Positions 39,528 through 50,173 of a DNA stretch of 53,755 bases are shown here, piece by piece. Every line of letters begins with the position of its first letter. Position 1 is the stretch's first letter. The notes below the pieces were generated by a model. It did not search any database and had not been told where the DNA came from. It was given only the letters and a program-made list of their open reading frames with translations. This DNA comes from Gemmatimonadota bacterium. Its GTDB lineage: Bacteria; Gemmatimonadota; Gemmatimonadetes; Longimicrobiales; Gaopeijiaceae. Where the stretch lies: contig SKKN01000044.1 of NCBI GenBank assembly GCA_007121455.1, forward strand, positions 1-53,755, given 5' to 3'. The position numbers were made by a program, and so were the translations under genes.

Positions 39528-41810
39528 TCAGAACCGGTAGCTGTAGTTCACCTTCATCGCACCTCCCCGGGAGATCGTGATGAACTCCCGGTCGAGGAGA
39601 CGCTCCAGCTCGTTCTGCCAGTTGTGTGTCCAGACCACGAAAATGTCGCTTCCCGGGCGGACGATCCAGCGAGCGCGAGCGAAGAGGCCCACCACGCGCG
39701 TTACATCGTCGTACTGGATGTTTCCATTCAACGACACGAGCGGGCTGAGATTCCATGCTCCTGAAAGACGGACGAGGTTCGTGTCGAACTCGCCCTCGGC
39801 GAGTCGGACCTCGTTTCGTTCGTACTCGGGGGTGAAGCTGACGCCCCTGCGCGGCCGGATGGTGCCACTGATCCCGAGTTCGGTTCGGCTTCCCGACCAG
39901 AAGTCGGCTTTCGTGACTTCCGCCCGGCCGGAAAGGGTGCGCCGGCCGGCGGTGCGGAAGCCCGTCGTCCAACTCCACCCTTTGTAGTCTCCTGCCGGGA
40001 TGCGGATCTCGTCCTCGTCCGTCCCATGGATTCGGAATGGACGGACGAGGCGCTCGAAGTTCTGTCCTGCCTCCAGGCTGAACTCGTCTCCACTTTCGAA
40101 ATTCAGCTCGAGGAGGGTGAGGTCCAGGTTTCGAGTCAACAGGCGCCAGTCCATGTCCGTCAGGTATTCGAACCAGGCCTGGAACTGCATCTGGCGGACG
40201 GCGGGCCACCATTCCGGCCGAGGAGCGAACGACAGGGTAGGCTGCGTACGCCGGAACCCGCGCCGCTGCGCGAAACCCACTGCCGGGTCCCATCCGGGGC
40301 CGAAGTCGCGGTAGGATGTGTGGAAGCGGACCAGGTCGTTCGGAAAGCTGACGCGGAGTCCCCGGGCTCGTCGCTCGTCGGAGAAGAGGTCTCCTCCCAG
40401 CGCCGGATCCGTGTGGTAGGAAAGGAAGCCTTGAACGTGGGCATTGTAGCCGCCCGGCGCGTCGGAGGTATAGAGATCCATGTCCGCACCGATCGTGTGC
40501 CGGTCGGCAGGAGTGAAGCCGTCCGGGTCGGCGTCACTTGCCCTGCGCGTGTAGATCGCACCCACGTGGGACTGCTGAAAGAGCGTCCTCTTGAGCCGTC
40601 CGACGGTGAAGTCCTCGGCTGGCTGCAAGCGGGTTCCCTCGGTGAGAGCCAGTTCCTGATGGCCCGTGCGCACCTGGTAGAAGCCCATCTCGTACCGGCC
40701 CGCCTGCCCTCCGAGCCTCGCGCCGTACCGTATCGGGACCTCCTGCCCTTCCACGAGGCCGATCCGACGGCTGAAGAACGGATCGGCCCATGCGAACGAA
40801 AAGACGCCGGATCCCTCCAGGAAGAAGTCCCGCTGCTCCGGGAAACGGAGTGGGAAGCGGGTTAGGTTCACTCTCCGCTGGTCCACCTCCACCTCGGCGA
40901 AATCGGTATTCACCGTGACGGCTGCTCTCAGAGAGGGAGTCAGGGAGTACGTCAGGTCGAAGCCCGTTTTGGCGTCCCCCTCCCACGAGGAGCCGAGCGC
41001 CACATCCTGATTGCCGGAGGTGAGGAGGTACGGCTTCATCTCGATCCCGAGCCCCTGCGAGAGGTCCTCGAGTCCTGTGAGCTCCCCTGCATGGGCAGGA
41101 CGAAAGAGGCTCTCCGTCCGCCGCCAGCCGCTCCAGAGGATCTCCTCGTTTTTCCGGCGGACCGTCCTCTGGAAGTTGATCCCCCACGTGTCCCGCGCGG
41201 GGTCGAAGTTCAGGGTGGAGAATGGAATCCGGATCTCGGCCGACCACCCATCGTCGTGGATCAGGGTGCGGACCTCCCATATCCCGTCCCAGGACTTGTT
41301 GATCCCACCTCCACCGCCGATCAGCCCGTCCCCCATGAGGCCGGCGGGGTTGATTTCGAAGAAGTACCCGGTTCTCCCGTCCCGGAACGTGTCCAGGATC
41401 CACATGAACCGATCGTCCGTGCCGAGCCCTTGGTTTCGCTCGAGCTGGTGCGCCAGGATGCCACCCGGGTCCGAATCGTTGAAGCTCGCCCCGATGTACA
41501 GAGCGTCCTGATCGAAGAGGATTCGGATCTCGGAAGGCTCGGTCGGAGCGCCTCCCTCGAGGGGCTCCCGCTGGCGCAATTCGGTGATCGGGTGGGCGAG
41601 GTCCCATGCTTCTTCATCGAGAGAACCATCCACCTGGATCGCGAGGTCGGCCGGGATCCGTACCGCTTCCACGCTCGGCCGGGCCGGCGAGACACTCTCC
41701 TGCGCAGCGAGGGGGACCGGTCCTTCCCCTGGCAGGAGGCCGGAGACGGAGATCAGGAAGAGGAGGGAGGCACCCACGAGATCCTTGGATCTTTGACCGA
41801 GTGCTGTCAT
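39528..41810 (-). CDS. DUF5916 outer-membrane protein with CBM9-like N-domain
   Basis: The 760-residue exported protein has a signal peptide (VGASLLFLISVSGLLPGEGPVPLAAQ), a CBM9-like beta-sandwich (about 50-230: IQVDGSLDEEAWDLAHPITELRQREPLEGGAPTEPSEIRILFDQDALYIGASFND, GYFFEINPAG, WSAEIRIPFSTLNF), and then the DUF5916 region (DFAEVEVDQRRVNLTRFPLRFPEQRDFFLEGSGVFSF) that continues into a beta-barrel ending in KVNYSYRF. The function of this family is unknown; sugar-binding and outer-membrane placement are expected. It is transcribed alone or with the small ORF region upstream of DUF1028. Confidence 0.9.
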   Translation of the reverse strand: MTALGQRSKDLVGASLLFLISVSGLLPGEGPVPLAAQESVSPARPSVEAVRIPADLAIQVDGSLDEEAWDLAHPITELRQREPLEGGAPTEPSEIRILFDQDALYIGASFNDSDPGGILAHQLERNQGLGTDDRFMWILDTFRDGRTGYFFEINPAGLMGDGLIGGGGGINKSWDGIWEVRTLIHDDGWSAEIRIPFSTLNFDPARDTWGINFQRTVRRKNEEILWSGWRRTESLFRPAHAGELTGLEDLSQGLGIEMKPYLLTSGNQDVALGSSWEGDAKTGFDLTYSLTPSLRAAVTVNTDFAEVEVDQRRVNLTRFPLRFPEQRDFFLEGSGVFSFAWADPFFSRRIGLVEGQEVPIRYGARLGGQAGRYEMGFYQVRTGHQELALTEGTRLQPAEDFTVGRLKRTLFQQSHVGAIYTRRASDADPDGFTPADRHTIGADMDLYTSDAPGGYNAHVQGFLSYHTDPALGGDLFSDERRARGLRVSFPNDLVRFHTSYRDFGPGWDPAVGFAQRRGFRRTQPTLSFAPRPEWWPAVRQMQFQAWFEYLTDMDWRLLTRNLDLTLLELNFESGDEFSLEAGQNFERLVRPFRIHGTDEDEIRIPAGDYKGWSWTTGFRTAGRRTLSGRAEVTKADFWSGSRTELGISGTIRPRRGVSFTPEYERNEVRLAEGEFDTNLVRLSGAWNLSPLVSLNGNIQYDDVTRVVGLFARARWIVRPGSDIFVVWTHNWQNELERLLDREFITISRGGAMKVNYSYRF

Positions 41811-41870
41811 CAGGAAAAATGTTGGGGAAGGGGTGAGTGAGCCGTCGGTCTCGCCGCCGGAGTTTTGCGT

Positions 41871-42770
41871 TCAGTCGCGGTTCAGGTGTCGCCAGTCGTC
41901 GTAGCGCTGCCGGAGCTCGACGAGCGGGTTTGCGCCCTGCAGGGTGTCCACCACGGAGATGGCGAGCCATGGTGCATTCGGTGTCCCCTGATCGGTCATC
42001 CCGATGTCGGCGGTCGCGTAGGGGTCGTCCCCTCCGCGGGCGACGAGGATCGCGGCGGTGGCCGCAGTCTGCACGACCTGTTCATCATTGCAGCGTACGT
42101 CCCCTCCGGCAATCGCCCCCGCTTCGAGCGCGCGCATCAGCCGGTCCGGGAGGGTGTTGCGGCCCGCCGGATCGTGCCGCTGGAAGGCGGCGAGGGGGTC
42201 GCTGACGACCGGGGGGCCGACGAGCGTGTTCCCCTGCGAGGTCACCCCCATGCTCGGGTCTGCCATGATCCCTGCCCAGGAGTCGTTCTCGGGATCGGAG
42301 TTTCGGGCCAGGATGTCCTCGCCGGTGAAGCCCGCGACCTGGACCGACCCACCGTGGATCGTCGCGACTCCGTACTGCCTCCGGCCGAGCACCGAGTCCG
42401 CCGCTGGATCTGCGACCCGGTCGATCACCTCCTGAGCGGAAAGGCCCTCCCGAAGGGCATCGAACACGCGATTCCGGTTCGTGAGGTCCCACGACGCCTG
42501 CACCGCGGCTACCCCGTGTCCCGGAACGAGCGCGGCGACCCCGTCGGCGTGAAGCTCCGGGACACAGGAAGCGACGGCCACTCCCACGTCACCCGTCGCA
42601 GGGTCGGCGGCGGCGATCGACCAGGTCGTCAGGTCCAGCGTGGACGATCCGGTGGCTGGAGTGCCCTGTTCCTGCTGGGGACTGCAGGCTGCGAAAAGGA
42701 GCAGGAACACCAGCAGCGTACCTTCACGCATCCGCATCGCGTTCACCCTCTGTTCCCAGGTTCGATTCAT
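41871..42770 (-). CDS. DUF1028-domain lipoprotein (Ntn-hydrolase-like)
   Basis: Starts at 42770 (MNRTWEQ) or 42737 are possible; a lipobox FAAC with a hydrophobic stretch (GTLLVFLLLFAAC) marks an exported lipoprotein. The DUF1028 fold begins with TTWSIAAADPATGDVGVAVASCVPELHADGVAALVPGHGVAAVQASWD, followed by ADPSMGVTSQGNTLVGPPVVSDPLAAF and NAPWLAISVVD. DUF1028 proteins share the Ntn-hydrolase fold; an amidase role is possible but unproven. It lies 60 bp upstream of the DUF5916 gene on the same strand, so the two may be co-transcribed. Confidence 0.88.
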   Translation of the reverse strand: MNRTWEQRVNAMRMREGTLLVFLLLFAACSPQQEQGTPATGSSTLDLTTWSIAAADPATGDVGVAVASCVPELHADGVAALVPGHGVAAVQASWDLTNRNRVFDALREGLSAQEVIDRVADPAADSVLGRRQYGVATIHGGSVQVAGFTGEDILARNSDPENDSWAGIMADPSMGVTSQGNTLVGPPVVSDPLAAFQRHDPAGRNTLPDRLMRALEAGAIAGGDVRCNDEQVVQTAATAAILVARGGDDPYATADIGMTDQGTPNAPWLAISVVDTLQGANPLVELRQRYDDWRHLNRD

Positions 42771-43013
42771 GGGTTGACCCGGGCAACATCCGGCCATCCA
42801 CCGTTTCCGCGCAAGCTCGAAGCCAGCCCCTTGCAGTCATGGGACGTCCGGTCCTCCGGGTCCGTCACTTGCCAATGATCTCTCGCCGTCGGATACTTGG
42901 ACCGATGATCTGAGCGGCGGCTCGCCCGGTCCTTCCGCGTTCAGGAGGGCTGGAGGCTGCGTAGGGGAGGACCACTCCCCAGCCTGCCCCGGGGTCACAC
43001 ATCGGAAGGCGAA

Positions 43014-44543
43014 ATGCACCGCCCAAAATCCCGTTCGAACGACGATCCGGAATCCGAGGCGGTAGTCGTCCATGAGGAGGCCGGCCACATCCTCACTCCC
43101 AACCGGCCGATCCGCATCCTCATCGTCGATGACGAGCATACGATCCGCGAGGGCTGCGCGACGATTCTCGGAGGCGAAGGTCGCGATGTCACCGTGTGCG
43201 GACGCGGGTCTGAAGCACAGGAGCTTCTTCGCACGGAGCCTTTCGACGTCGTTCTCCTTGATCTCTTCATGCAGGGAGTTTCGGGGCTCGAGCTCATGCG
43301 GACGTGCAGGGCTCGCTCCCCCGATGCGCTCGTCATCATGATGACCGGGAAGCCCTCGGTGGATTCGAGCATCGAATGCCTTCGGGATGGCGCGTGGGAT
43401 TACCTGGTCAAGCCGTTCTCCGCAGCCCAGCTCCGGATCCTCATGGGGCGGGCTGCCCATGCGGTCGCAGTGGCTCGGGAGAGCTCTCATTGTCCGGTCT
43501 ACTCGCCGGGAGAGGATCCGGAGCTTGCACGGGTGATGGAGGGGGCGACCGGCCTGCAGAGGGTGCTCGAGCAGGCACGCCGCGTTGCACCGAGTGATGC
43601 GGCAGTATTCATCACGGGAGAGAGCGGCACGGGAAAGGAGCTTCTGGCCCGCTACATCCACCGACGAAGCCGGCGCCGAAGTCGTCCGTTCGTGCCGGTC
43701 AACTGTGCGACCCTTCCCGAGCGTGCTCCGGTATCGGAGCTCTTTGACCTCGAGGGGGCGGTGGGTGTCGGTGCCCGGCGGGAAGGACCGGCCCCCCTCG
43801 CCATCACCCACGGCGGCACCCTCTTCCTCGATTTTCTCACCGGAATGCCACTGGACGTCCAGGCGAAGGTTCTGCGCGTTATCCAGGAAGGTGCAGTGTC
43901 CGAGCCCGTCGGAGACCGGCTTCCCGGGACGATGAACGTGCGGTTCATCACGGCCACGAACGAAGACCCGCAGGAGTCACTGCAGACGGGAGATCTTCGC
44001 CGCGACCTCTACTACCGGCTCCGCGTCGTTCCTCTTCACCTTCCCCCGCTTCGGGAGCGGGTTTCGGACGTTCCGGCGATCGCCCGGCACTTCCTCACCC
44101 GGTGCTGGGAACGACACGGACACGGCCGGACACCTCCGGTCCTCGGGGACGAGGCGATCCGGGAGCTCCAGGGGCGGCCGTGGCCCGGAAACCTCCGGGA
44201 GCTGCGAAACCTCATCGAGCACACCGCGGTCCTCATGAACCGGGGAGAGACGATCACGCCCGCTCATCTCCCCAAGCAGGACGGGGGAGGCGAAGCGCAT
44301 GAGGTCGAGCAGGACGACGACCTCATGGAGGGGTTCCTCGACGAAGACTTCCATACTGCGAGGGATCGGCTACTCGCGGAGTTCGAGAAGCGGTACCTCT
44401 TCCACATGGTTCGTCGAGCGAACGGGAACATGTCGGAAGCCGCCCGACTCGCGGGGGTGGATCGCACCACCCTCTTCCGCATCCGACGGAAGCACAACCT
44501 GGACCGCGACGATCTGCTCGAGCAGAGGCCTCCCGAAGCGTGA
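43014..44543 (+). CDS. NtrC-like response regulator with degenerate AAA+ motifs
   Basis: The 509-residue protein has a receiver (32-145: Asp39-40, phospho-Asp83 in VVLLDLFM, Lys133), an AAA+ domain (170-400) and a Fis-type HTH (470-495: GNMSEAARLAGVDRTTLFRIRRKH). Walker A is intact (GESGTGKE, 202-209), as are the sensor and RDLYYRLRVVPLHLPPLRER segments. Two sigma54 requirements are broken: GAFTGA reads GAVGVGA (248-254), and Walker B LDE is LDF (272-274), removing the Glu that activates water. It should therefore not hydrolyse ATP to open sigma54 promoters; it may act as a sigma70 regulator, as TyrR- or HupR-like proteins do. It overlaps the partner kinase by 4 bp. Confidence 0.92.
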   Translation: MHRPKSRSNDDPESEAVVVHEEAGHILTPNRPIRILIVDDEHTIREGCATILGGEGRDVTVCGRGSEAQELLRTEPFDVVLLDLFMQGVSGLELMRTCRARSPDALVIMMTGKPSVDSSIECLRDGAWDYLVKPFSAAQLRILMGRAAHAVAVARESSHCPVYSPGEDPELARVMEGATGLQRVLEQARRVAPSDAAVFITGESGTGKELLARYIHRRSRRRSRPFVPVNCATLPERAPVSELFDLEGAVGVGARREGPAPLAITHGGTLFLDFLTGMPLDVQAKVLRVIQEGAVSEPVGDRLPGTMNVRFITATNEDPQESLQTGDLRRDLYYRLRVVPLHLPPLRERVSDVPAIARHFLTRCWERHGHGRTPPVLGDEAIRELQGRPWPGNLRELRNLIEHTAVLMNRGETITPAHLPKQDGGGEAHEVEQDDDLMEGFLDEDFHTARDRLLAEFEKRYLFHMVRRANGNMSEAARLAGVDRTTLFRIRRKHNLDRDDLLEQRPPEA

Positions 44544-45634
44544 CCGAGGAGGCGTCTTCGACAGGTTCGGACCCCCAGAAAGGTGCGCGTGAACGCCGCG
44601 CCCGGATCCTCCGCAGCGGAATTCGCCGGCTGGATCGCAGGTGGCGGGATCGGTCGGAGGAACCGCGCGGCGCGCTACGGGCGGCTCTGGCCCCGGTCGT
44701 TCGCGCAGTGAGACAAATCGATGTCGCCCCTCCAAACGTCGAACATGATGATCCTGGCGAGCTCGTCCTTCGGAGGGCCGTCCTGGACGAGCTTCGGGGC
44801 GTGCTACTGGAGGGCACCGACGGTGTCGGTGTGGGTACCGAATGGCATCGTGAGCGCCTCGGACTGCTTCGCCGGCTCGAGGCGGTCCGAGTTGCGTTGG
44901 AGCCGACGCATCGCGGACGGTTTGCGGATGCCCTCATCGGGCCACACGGCCTCGGGCTCGCGCTCGGCGTCACCCACGATCTCCGTTCGCCGCTCACATC
45001 GATCCTCTTTCTCTCCGATGCGCTCAGGAGTGGCAGCAGCGGTCGCCTGAACGACCTGCAACGGCGCCAGGTCGAGCTCCTCCATAGCGCGGGCCGCAGC
45101 ATGCTGTCCCTGGTGAACGATGTCGTCGACGCCTCCGCTCCGACACCGGAACGCGCTGAAGAGGTGGAGCCGTTCTTCGTCGAGGAGGTGCTGCGCTCCG
45201 TGGCGGACCTCGTCGCCCCGATCGCGGAAGCGAAGGCGCTCGAGTTGAGGCTGGCCGTTCCGGAGCTTGGCGTCCGCCGTGGCAGGCCGCTCGAATTGGG
45301 ACGGGTCGTGCTCAACCTTGCAACGAACGCCGCCCGGTTCACCGACGACGGGTTCGTCGAGATACGTGCGCGCGCGACAGGACCTTCGTCCGTGAGATTC
45401 TGGGTGCGGGACACGGGTCGCGGCTTGCCCCCCGGGATGAAGCAGAAGCTGTCCCTTCCCTTTCGGACGATGCCGGGAGGAAGGGGATACCGATTCTCCT
45501 CTTCCGGGTTGGGCCTTACGATCGTCTGTTCGCTTCTCGACCTGATGGGCTCGACCCTGGAGGTCGAAACCTGGCCAGGGGAGGGAACGACCTTTTCGTT
45601 CTCGTTGGAACTTCCGGTCAGATCGGTGGCGTAG
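44540..45634 (+). CDS. Soluble sensor histidine kinase paired with the NtrC-like regulator
   Basis: The 364-residue protein starts at GTG 44540, inside the stop of the regulator gene (GTGA overlap). It has no membrane segment. An N-terminal region of about 135 residues is rich in Arg and Leu and matches no known sensor. The HisKA motif THDLRSPLTSILFLSDAL has His146; the HATPase part has NLATNAARF, RDTGRGLPPGM and SSSGLGLTIVCSLL. It should phosphorylate Asp83 of the upstream regulator. The stimulus is unknown. Confidence 0.92.
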   Translation: MTEEASSTGSDPQKGARERRARILRSGIRRLDRRWRDRSEEPRGALRAALAPVVRAVRQIDVAPPNVEHDDPGELVLRRAVLDELRGVLLEGTDGVGVGTEWHRERLGLLRRLEAVRVALEPTHRGRFADALIGPHGLGLALGVTHDLRSPLTSILFLSDALRSGSSGRLNDLQRRQVELLHSAGRSMLSLVNDVVDASAPTPERAEEVEPFFVEEVLRSVADLVAPIAEAKALELRLAVPELGVRRGRPLELGRVVLNLATNAARFTDDGFVEIRARATGPSSVRFWVRDTGRGLPPGMKQKLSLPFRTMPGGRGYRFSSSGLGLTIVCSLLDLMGSTLEVETWPGEGTTFSFSLELPVRSVA

Positions 45635-47620: not shown

Positions 47621-48529
47621 TCAAGGACGTCCCGCGGCTTCTCTTCCGAGCTGCAGCGCATCGCCGCCGGCGATGATGACCCGGAAGCCCTGCTCGACCC
47701 TCTTTAGTACATTATCAGGCCCCGCCGTGATCCCGCACGGCACGTCGTGCTCCAGGCATGCCGCGAGCACGGTCTGAATCGCCTCCTCCACTCTCTCCTG
47801 GTCGCCTCTGTAGTACACCCCTAAATCACCGGGTGCCGGAACCACGACGGAAACGCCGGGAACCTGCACGATCTCGTCGATATTGCGAACGCCCTCTCCA
47901 TTCTCGATGAGGAGAAGGTTCAGGAGCTCCCCCCTCGGGCTCAGTCCCCAGGGGTCGGCCAGCTCGAGGTATTCCGCGCGGTCGACGCCCCACAGTCGCA
48001 GCGCGTTGCCCGGACCAGCCCCGCGTTCTCCAGGTGGGTTCGGGTTGGCCGCGTCCTGCGGCTGAGCGTAGCGCATCGCGCGAACCACATTTTCCGCCTG
48101 CTCGGCGTTCTCTATGAAGGGGGCGATGATTCCATGGACGCCCTGGTCGAGGAGGTTCTTGATGATCCACTGATTCATCTCACGGCCGTTCACCGGAATC
48201 CTGACCATCACCGGATGCTCCGTCCCCGGCCGCCCTCGCTCAAGGATCTGTGCAGGGTCGAGCATGTATTGGAGAAACACGCTCAACTGCGTCATGTCGA
48301 ACGGGCGATGCTCCATGTCGTAGAAGAGGAAGTCGATTTCGGGGTTCCGAACCATCTCTGCCGCTCCCTCGGGGCTCCGGTGCGGAACCGAGGATCCGAA
48401 CACGACTTCGCCTTCGTCGAGGAGGCGGACGAGCTCGATGAACCGTTCACCCTCCTGAGCTTCGAGCGGCGGAGCCGTCGCCACCGAGAGGAGAAGGACG
48501 GCCGCGGGGATGATGCTGCGATAGTTCAT
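47621..48529 (-). CDS. Exported HpcH/HpaI-family aldolase-like protein, active site intact
   Basis: The 302-residue protein starts MNYRSIIPAAVLLLSVATAPPLEAQ, a signal peptide, which is unusual because HpcH/HpaI class II aldolases are cytosolic. The aldolase barrel retains key residues by comparison with HpaI: His74 (YDMEHRPF), Arg110 (VMVRIP), metal Glu209 (LLIENGEG) and metal Asp235 (PAPGDLGV). The family retro-aldol cleaves 4-hydroxy-2-oxo acids to pyruvate or glyoxylate plus an aldehyde. In the periplasm it might act on lignin-, sugar- or wall-derived oxo acids. A related, degenerate copy is encoded 0.7 kb away on the same strand. Confidence 0.88.
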   Translation of the reverse strand: MNYRSIIPAAVLLLSVATAPPLEAQEGERFIELVRLLDEGEVVFGSSVPHRSPEGAAEMVRNPEIDFLFYDMEHRPFDMTQLSVFLQYMLDPAQILERGRPGTEHPVMVRIPVNGREMNQWIIKNLLDQGVHGIIAPFIENAEQAENVVRAMRYAQPQDAANPNPPGERGAGPGNALRLWGVDRAEYLELADPWGLSPRGELLNLLLIENGEGVRNIDEIVQVPGVSVVVPAPGDLGVYYRGDQERVEEAIQTVLAACLEHDVPCGITAGPDNVLKRVEQGFRVIIAGGDALQLGREAAGRP

Positions 48530-48759
48530 GACGGTCTCCAGGGCATGAATGCGGGTGTGCCGACGCGACTCCAAGGATGCTCGTACCACTGCTCCAGGTC
48601 CCTGCCATACTCCACGCCGGTCGCCCGAATCGCAAGCGAGCGGACGCCCTTGACGCACAGTGTGAGTGGAACAATGGTTCGAAAGAGGAGTAGCGCGAAA
48701 CGAACGAAAGGGCGTGATCCCGCCCAACAAGGTTCCTTCAAATCGCTGGGTGGTGTGCC

Positions 48760-49202: not shown

Positions 49203-50075
49203 CTAACGTGAAGACACCGCTCGCCCGATCTCGATGACCTCGTCCGCCTGCGGGCCACTCGCCAGGAGGGCCAGGAATCCCTGCTGGATCCGCTGGTCCA
49301 CGTTCTCGGCATTTGCCGTGATCATGTTGGGAAGGCCCGCTCGCCTTGCTTCCTCGAGCACGTGCTGCGTGCCTTCTTCCGCGGCCTCCCGGTCTCCACC
49401 GAGGGCGCCCGTCAGGCTTCCGATCCCGCAGGCGAGGATGCTGTAGCCCGGCAGGTCCGCGATCGGCCCGGCCTGCGCCACCGCATCGGGGTCCTCGAGC
49501 ATGAACATGGCGATCGTCGTCCCCTCGGGGTTCGCTGGGGACCAGACGTCCGCCCCCGCATCTTCGAAGAAGCCTGCTGCTCGCCTTGCCTCCTCCACGT
49601 CCCGGATATGGGGGAGCACTACGCCGTCCGCCCCCAGATCCAGAATTTCCTCAATCCGGGCCCGCGTGACTTCGTCCCCCGCGTCCACCAATGGTGGAAT
49701 TCGAACAAGAAGGGCCGTGCGCTCATCGGCCTCGGCGGATCGCAGACCCTGGGAGATCCGTCTTACGACATCGGCGTCGTACTCCCGTTCCAGGTCGAGA
49801 AAGAGATAGTCGTAGAGGGGGTTTTGAGCCAGCCTTGCCCCTCCTTCCTCCGTAAACAAGCGGTCCGGGCCTTCGAACTCGCCGTCTTCGCCACGCGGTC
49901 GCTCATCCGGAACGAAGATTCCGAAGGCCGGAACTCCCCGCTCCCAGAGGTCGAGGACATCGGGACGTGGGGAGGGCGTGACCGATTCCTCCGTCTCGGC
50001 AGCAGGGGGCTCTGGATCGGCACAGGCTGCGGATGCGAAGAGCACGAGGACGAGGGTGAGTAGGCGACGGTGCAT
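49203..50075 (-). CDS. HpcH/HpaI-fold lipoprotein with lost catalytic residues
   Basis: ATG 50075 gives 290 residues with a lipobox ASAAC (Cys about 18). The fold follows HpcH/HpaI: YDYLFLDLEREYD, TALLVRIPPL, GADGVVLPHIRDVEEARRAAGF, AMFMLEDPDAV, GYSILACGIGSLTGALG. Compared with the intact copy at 47621, the catalytic His is replaced (DLEREYD versus DMEHRPF), and the metal Asp of the APGDLG segment is lost (GIGSLTG); the Arg and metal Glu remain. It could be a binding protein or a diverged enzyme. A 128-residue spacer rich in Glu and Pro follows the lipobox. Confidence 0.85.
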   Translation of the reverse strand: MHRRLLTLVLVLFASAACADPEPPAAETEESVTPSPRPDVLDLWERGVPAFGIFVPDERPRGEDGEFEGPDRLFTEEGGARLAQNPLYDYLFLDLEREYDADVVRRISQGLRSAEADERTALLVRIPPLVDAGDEVTRARIEEILDLGADGVVLPHIRDVEEARRAAGFFEDAGADVWSPANPEGTTIAMFMLEDPDAVAQAGPIADLPGYSILACGIGSLTGALGGDREAAEEGTQHVLEEARRAGLPNMITANAENVDQRIQQGFLALLASGPQADEVIEIGRAVSSR

Positions 50076-50173
50076 GAGCAGTCCGTGGGTCTCGAGGAGT
50101 CTTGGCAGCGTTCGAACAACTGAGCGGCCTGCATCGATCATGGGTGGCGGGTCCGGGTCTTCGCCAGGGTGCC

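Follow-up and report, generated by a model that had tools for sequence, protein, structure and literature searches.

The window analyzed here, a 53,755-nucleotide stretch of a draft Gemmatimonadota genome, encodes an NtrC-type response regulator and its cognate soluble histidine kinase (Table 1). The two open reading frames share a GTGA, the 4-nucleotide overlap described in the initial annotation. With a receiver (REC), an AAA+ domain, and a Fis-type helix-turn-helix (HTH) on one chain beside its kinase, the regulator has the makeup of an NtrC-type response regulator, and it matches the Pfam models Response_reg, Sigma54_activat, AAA lid, and HTH_8, scoring 159.6 bits against the AAA+ sigma54-interaction domain PF00158 (cut-off, 20.2 bits). 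The kinase matches HisKA and HATPase_c only, retains its histidine and its N, G1, and G2 boxes, and has none of 23 invariant columns changed. No Pfam domain was found in its N-terminal region, but the earlier description of this region as an unfamiliar sensor was overstated, as it is typical of the kinase clade and aligns across it, with weak conservation.

Divergent from the pair, genes for DUF5916 and DUF1028 proteins occupy positions 39528 to 42797 of the window. Two HpcH/HpaI aldolase-like genes lie near each other on the minus strand (47621 to 48730 and 49203 to 50141).

Table 1. Features of the regulator-kinase locus (positions in the window)
Feature	Position	Strand	Remarks
Intergenic region upstream of regulator	42798-43013	+	
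NtrC-type response regulator	43014-44543	+	REC, AAA+ (sigma54-activator type), Fis-type HTH; 509 aa; ORF, Pfam
Receiver domain	43110-43457	+	Acidic pocket present
Phospho-acceptor Asp83	43260-43262	+	
Walker A	43617-43640	+	GESGTGKE, intact
Eroded AAA+ segment	43704-43934	+	Residues 231-307; L1, Walker B, L2/pre-sensor I
L1 tip	43755-43775	+	GAVGVGA where GAFTGA is expected
Walker B	43821-43835	+	LFLDF, Glu to Phe
Altered L2 region	43884-43913	+	QEGAVSEPVG; family, QDGVVRRVGS
Sensor I	43953-43961	+	ATN, intact
Arginine-finger stretch	43998-44018	+	RRDLYYR, intact (RRDLYYRL)
Sensor II	44187-44204	+	GNLREL, intact; family, GNVREL
Fis-type HTH	44349-44507	+	Recognition helix VDRTTLFRI; family, VDRTTLYRL
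Soluble histidine kinase	44540-45634	+	364 aa, GTG start; ORF, Pfam
Kinase histidine	44975-44977		

Loss of the sigma54-contact and hydrolysis motifs

The regulator was compared with relatives drawn from the same family, order, and class at about 45 to 53% identity, giving 52 aligned sequences including its own. At the tip of L1, where all 51 relatives keep G[AS]FTGA, the regulator aligns as EGA-VGV-GA (L1 region, SELFDLEGAVGVGARREG), and both the F and the T of GAFTGA are gone. The stretch was replaced and re-spaced, with FT becoming VGV plus a compensating one-codon shift that keeps the length of the loop. Its Walker B motif reads GTLFLDF, with LFLDF encoded by CTC TTC CTC GAT TTT, and so departs from the hhhhDE pattern; the Asp-Glu pair is present in 51 of 51 relatives, making the window regulator the sole exception among the 52, and the TTT codon is at least two base changes (two or three) from any Glu codon. 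Both losses had been called in the initial annotation, together with retention of Walker A, the receiver, and the Fis HTH, and all of these calls hold. The sensors, the arginine fingers, and the glutamate-switch Asn (N230) are also in place. All 14 other full-length bacterial enhancer-binding proteins (bEBPs) in the same genome are canonical, with minor GAFTGA variants.

The losses are confined to the segment for sigma54 contact and hydrolysis, and the signal-receiving and DNA-binding parts are kept. In a leave-one-out count of departures at near-invariant columns, the regulator had 28, the next member 9, and the median member 3. Within residues 231 to 307, 20 of 38 invariant columns were changed, compared to 3 of 36 in the remaining AAA+ core (Fisher P = 4e-5), 0 of 15 in the receiver, 1 of 15 in the HTH (Y488F), and 2 of 19 in the lid; the AAA+ core as a whole (23/74) also differed from the receiver, HTH, and lid combined (3/49; P = 7e-4). 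This is normally the best-conserved stretch, 77% identical between two canonical members, and it is the least conserved in the regulator, at 39 to 42% identity to relatives versus 55 to 66% in its other domains. Terminal branch lengths for the receiver (0.42) and the HTH (0.29) are not longer than those of paralogues. Counts and percent identity were used for residues 231 to 307 in place of their branch length of 8, which is inflated by the compensating one-codon shifts.

An error of sequencing or assembly in the two motifs would undo these results, and the altered regulator is known from a single sequence in one draft genome of 80 contigs. This is a scarcely credible explanation: a base-call error is implausible because the loop is replaced and re-spaced with different in-frame codons and because no single base change could have turned Glu into this Phe, and about 20 further invariant sites are changed over the same 77 residues. 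A frameshift or chimera was also rejected, as no GAFTGA is encoded in the other reading frames across the eroded stretch, the best matches of the segment belong to the same clade, and GC3 through it is normal (0.73).

Descent of the pair and distribution of the losses

In a tree of 55 regulators, the window regulator had the longest end branch flagged (1.45 versus a median of 0.26). When the tree was rebuilt without residues 228 to 309, it still joined a group of six canonical regulators (support, 90/93). In a kinase tree built independently, its kinase fell with those that partner these six regulators (support, 99/95). The six pairs are those of genomes G020, G009, G026, G149, G057, and G150. 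Because both trees place the pair among canonical sigma54-type pairs, the loss is specific to this lineage and not a clade trait; most simply, the pair would have been inherited vertically and the change, a derived one, arose on this lineage. Together with the confinement of the losses and the presence of rpoN in the genome, which the initial annotation had proposed to check, this placement supports the view that the pair was converted from a sigma54 activator system. The suggestion that the losses might mark a clade fails in the genomes compared, as every sister sequence is intact and a single genome carries the altered regulator. When 246 genomes of the class were searched for DNA encoding GTLFLDF, no other bEBP was recovered; the motif matched only within a methyltransferase-like protein and a protein of outer-membrane type.

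Two of the intact bEBP paralogues in this genome, on contigs C62 and C77, are members of the same clade, in other branches than the window pair. A recent duplication of either was rejected, since the trees put the pair elsewhere, with its orthologous group. In a comparison of gene order with 13 regions, two of which are the genome's own paralogue loci, only the regulator and kinase were shared. A wider scan of contigs for relatives returned distant ones only, and the NtrX comparison below came from these.

A predicted family operator and the neighborhoods of the clade

Upstream of clade regulators, the heptamer CGCAACA/TGTTGCG is enriched (16 of 49 regions versus 2.3 expected) and forms the dyad TGTTGC-N6-GCAACA, a family operator predicted from this enrichment. 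A best match of at least 10 of 12 positions to the dyad occurred in 26 of 58 upstream regions versus 15 of 1,160 shuffles, in a set that covers the regions of L001 to L030 and L052 to L067 and in which a few loci are duplicates. Only this upstream enrichment and the clustering of sites are informative, as single matches genome-wide are not enriched over a reversed-pattern control (43 versus 64). Operator pairs 22 to 62 bp apart occur at three places in the genome (C1:260597/260619, C29:57292/57335, and C62:11097-11180). From its conserved HTH, the window regulator is predicted to bind the same dyad.

Three operator sites lie in the intergenic region of the C62 paralogue, along with a sigma54-like box oriented toward an operon that encodes a TPR protein, a family 2 glycosyltransferase, and a polysaccharide deacetylase. 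For the C77 paralogue, which is divergent from a Wzz/GNVR-type kinase gene, the sigma54-like box is strong (TGGCACATACGTTGCG). Upstream of the window pair itself (42798 to 43013), no sigma54 box scored above background (0.76 versus 0.74), and the best operator match there, 8 of 12, is also background.

Clade relatives adjoin Wzz/BYK-type genes or degenerate REC-GGDEF genes, which suggests that the clade consists of sigma54 activators for exopolysaccharide and biofilm functions. Among the genes examined around the window pair, there were no polysaccharide or REC-GGDEF neighbors. Degenerate REC-GGDEF genes recur beside clade pairs (L205:4409-5430 on the minus strand, L138:9166-10188, L139:11343-12341, L144:10975-11988, and others), and two copies lie on contig C1; one of these has operators in tandem, and no sigma54 box there exceeds background. 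The canonical C77 regulator (L135:10034-11635) sits beside its Wzz/BYK-type gene without the adjacent kinase that relatives of this layout have, and it may be an orphan whose own kinase is encoded elsewhere.

Comparison with known sigma54-uncoupled regulators

A full-length AlphaFold model of the regulator keeps the whole fold (mean pLDDT, 73), with L1 residues 247 to 255 below 50. In a fold search with this model, the best PDB match was NtrX, followed by NtrC4/NtrC1, and VpsR was also listed. NtrX of Brucella abortus (PDB 5m7n/o/p) is likewise a REC-AAA+-Fis HTH protein with an L1 that lacks GAFTGA, but it keeps LYLDE where the window regulator has LFLDF. Both losses occur in parallel in an NtrX from Magnetococcales (L072:3989-5365), which lacks GAFTGA and has LFLDA as its Walker B motif. 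NtrX has the membrane kinase NtrY as its partner. The window regulator belongs to another clade, where its sisters are canonical regulators of the sigma54 type. Membership in NtrX was rejected, as the regulator scores 301.2 bits against the equivalog NF051870 (cut-off, 600) and its neighbor, at 364 residues with HisKA and HATPase_c only, is no NtrY-type membrane kinase. The PrsR-type PEP-CTERM response regulator model TIGR02915, which shares a polysaccharide-linked setting with the clade, matches near full length at 281.2 bits, far below its curated cut-off of 502.6, and this membership was rejected as well.

TyrR and DhaR of Escherichia coli are ligand regulated and have no receiver domain. 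They are bEBP paralogues that have lost sigma54 contact and are sigma70 dependent (PMC3162934). Closer in architecture are NtrC/HupR of Rhodobacterales and NtrC of Caulobacter, which, like the window regulator, lost the sigma54 loop and kept the receiver, ATP site, and HTH (PMC10274813, PMC3162934). In these proteins L1 is deleted, and in the Rhodobacterales relatives ED (CLED) stands for DE, whereas the window regulator keeps the loop length, replaces its sequence, and loses the Glu. VpsR of Vibrio cholerae (PDB 7v2b), a polysaccharide-linked bEBP homologue without GAFTGA, regulates sigma70 promoters (PMC3162934, PMC10274813); according to work cited in PMC10274813, it is reported not to require ATP and to sense c-di-GMP and phosphate. 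VpsR is only distantly related to the window regulator. With GAFTGA lost and its DNA-binding and regulatory domains kept, the window regulator is, judged by its sequence, an independent new case among the sigma54-uncoupled bEBP homologues (NtrX, HupR, TyrR, and VpsR).

Proposed function of the regulator

We consider it probable that the protein is an NtrC-type regulator uncoupled from sigma54, controlled by phosphorylation, binding nucleotide and DNA, and acting as a repressor or competitor or as a sigma70 regulator, in line with the other kind of switch suggested in the initial annotation. Its ancestor would have belonged to a clade of sigma54 activators tied to exopolysaccharide and REC-GGDEF genes and descended vertically together with the kinase, with the L1 contact loop, the catalytic Walker B glutamate, and the L2 region lost in this lineage. 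The kinase would phosphorylate Asp83, phosphorylation and ATP binding through the retained Walker A, sensors, and arginine fingers would determine how the protein oligomerizes, and TGTTGC-N6-GCAACA sites would be bound through the intact HTH. Because such a regulator could not engage or remodel the sigma54 holoenzyme, its output would be occupancy: it could repress, compete with the canonical paralogues for sites they have in common, or modulate promoters of the sigma70 type. That the protein binds ATP without hydrolyzing it, which DNA it targets, and the sign of its regulation are in each case inferred from sequence, and a Phe in place of the catalytic Glu is not proof that hydrolysis has ceased entirely.

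Published parallels back each step separately, for loss of activation, action at sigma70 promoters, and an ATP-engaged nonhydrolyzing state. Activation is mostly abolished when the F or T of GAFTGA is changed, and deviations of this sort occur in about 110 bEBP homologues (PMC3162934). NtrC proteins without GAFTGA act at sigma70 promoters, and NtrC of Rhodobacter capsulatus needs ATP binding but not hydrolysis (PMC10274813). The hydrolysis-defective PspF variant E108Q forms constitutive hexamers and engages the holoenzyme in its nucleotide-bound state (PMC4132715).

A narrow form of the uncoupled-regulator reading makes the protein an antagonist of its own paralogues, competing or coassembling at the TGTTGC-N6-GCAACA enhancers of the C62 and C77 regulators and vetoing sigma54 transcription of polysaccharide genes. 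The near-identical recognition helix, the retained arginine fingers, Walker A, and sensor residues, the tandem operators both next to the C1 REC-GGDEF gene and by the operon and sigma54-like box at C62, and the lack of an adjacent kinase at C77 are consistent with this role, but operators are degenerate at most loci and single sites are not enriched across the genome, and we hold it to be possible rather than likely. A more specific version, in which phosphorylation drives an ATP-locked, nonhydrolyzing regulator onto the enhancers of its intact sisters, or into mixed assemblies there, so that the kinase signal would be inverted into a veto, seems doubtful. Direct regulation of the sigma70 type, either activating or repressing its own set of promoters in the manner of R. 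capsulatus NtrC, HupR, and VpsR, is another tentative reading; it is a known outcome of GAFTGA loss (PMC3162934, PMC10274813) and fits the intact receiver, Walker A, and HTH as well as the C1 REC-GGDEF gene whose tandem operators lack a sigma54 box, although the sequence has no feature specific for sigma70 contact.

Erosion of residues 231 to 307 could reflect relaxed constraint on a segment that no longer has a purpose. It could also be read as early decay of the whole regulator, with the kinase now serving another one, such as the orphan C77 paralogue, and the reversal of conservation in this stretch would suit such a history. That outcome is improbable, since a generally decaying gene would show damage in its other domains too: the receiver and HTH are almost unchanged, the frame is intact with normal GC3 in the segment, and translational coupling to the kinase is kept.

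As a regulator probably uncoupled from sigma54, the protein offers a fresh natural case in which a sigma54 activator loses its motor output and keeps input and DNA binding, a change seen a few times in distant relatives. Annotation by PF00158 alone would miscount it as a sigma54 activator. Every other sampled member of the clade is intact, and two such members coexist with it in the same cell. The sharp pattern of loss, with receiver, HTH, and kinase untouched, makes it possible to ask whether losses of this kind give rise to repressors or to sigma70 regulators, and the predicted family operator supplies concrete candidate DNA targets.
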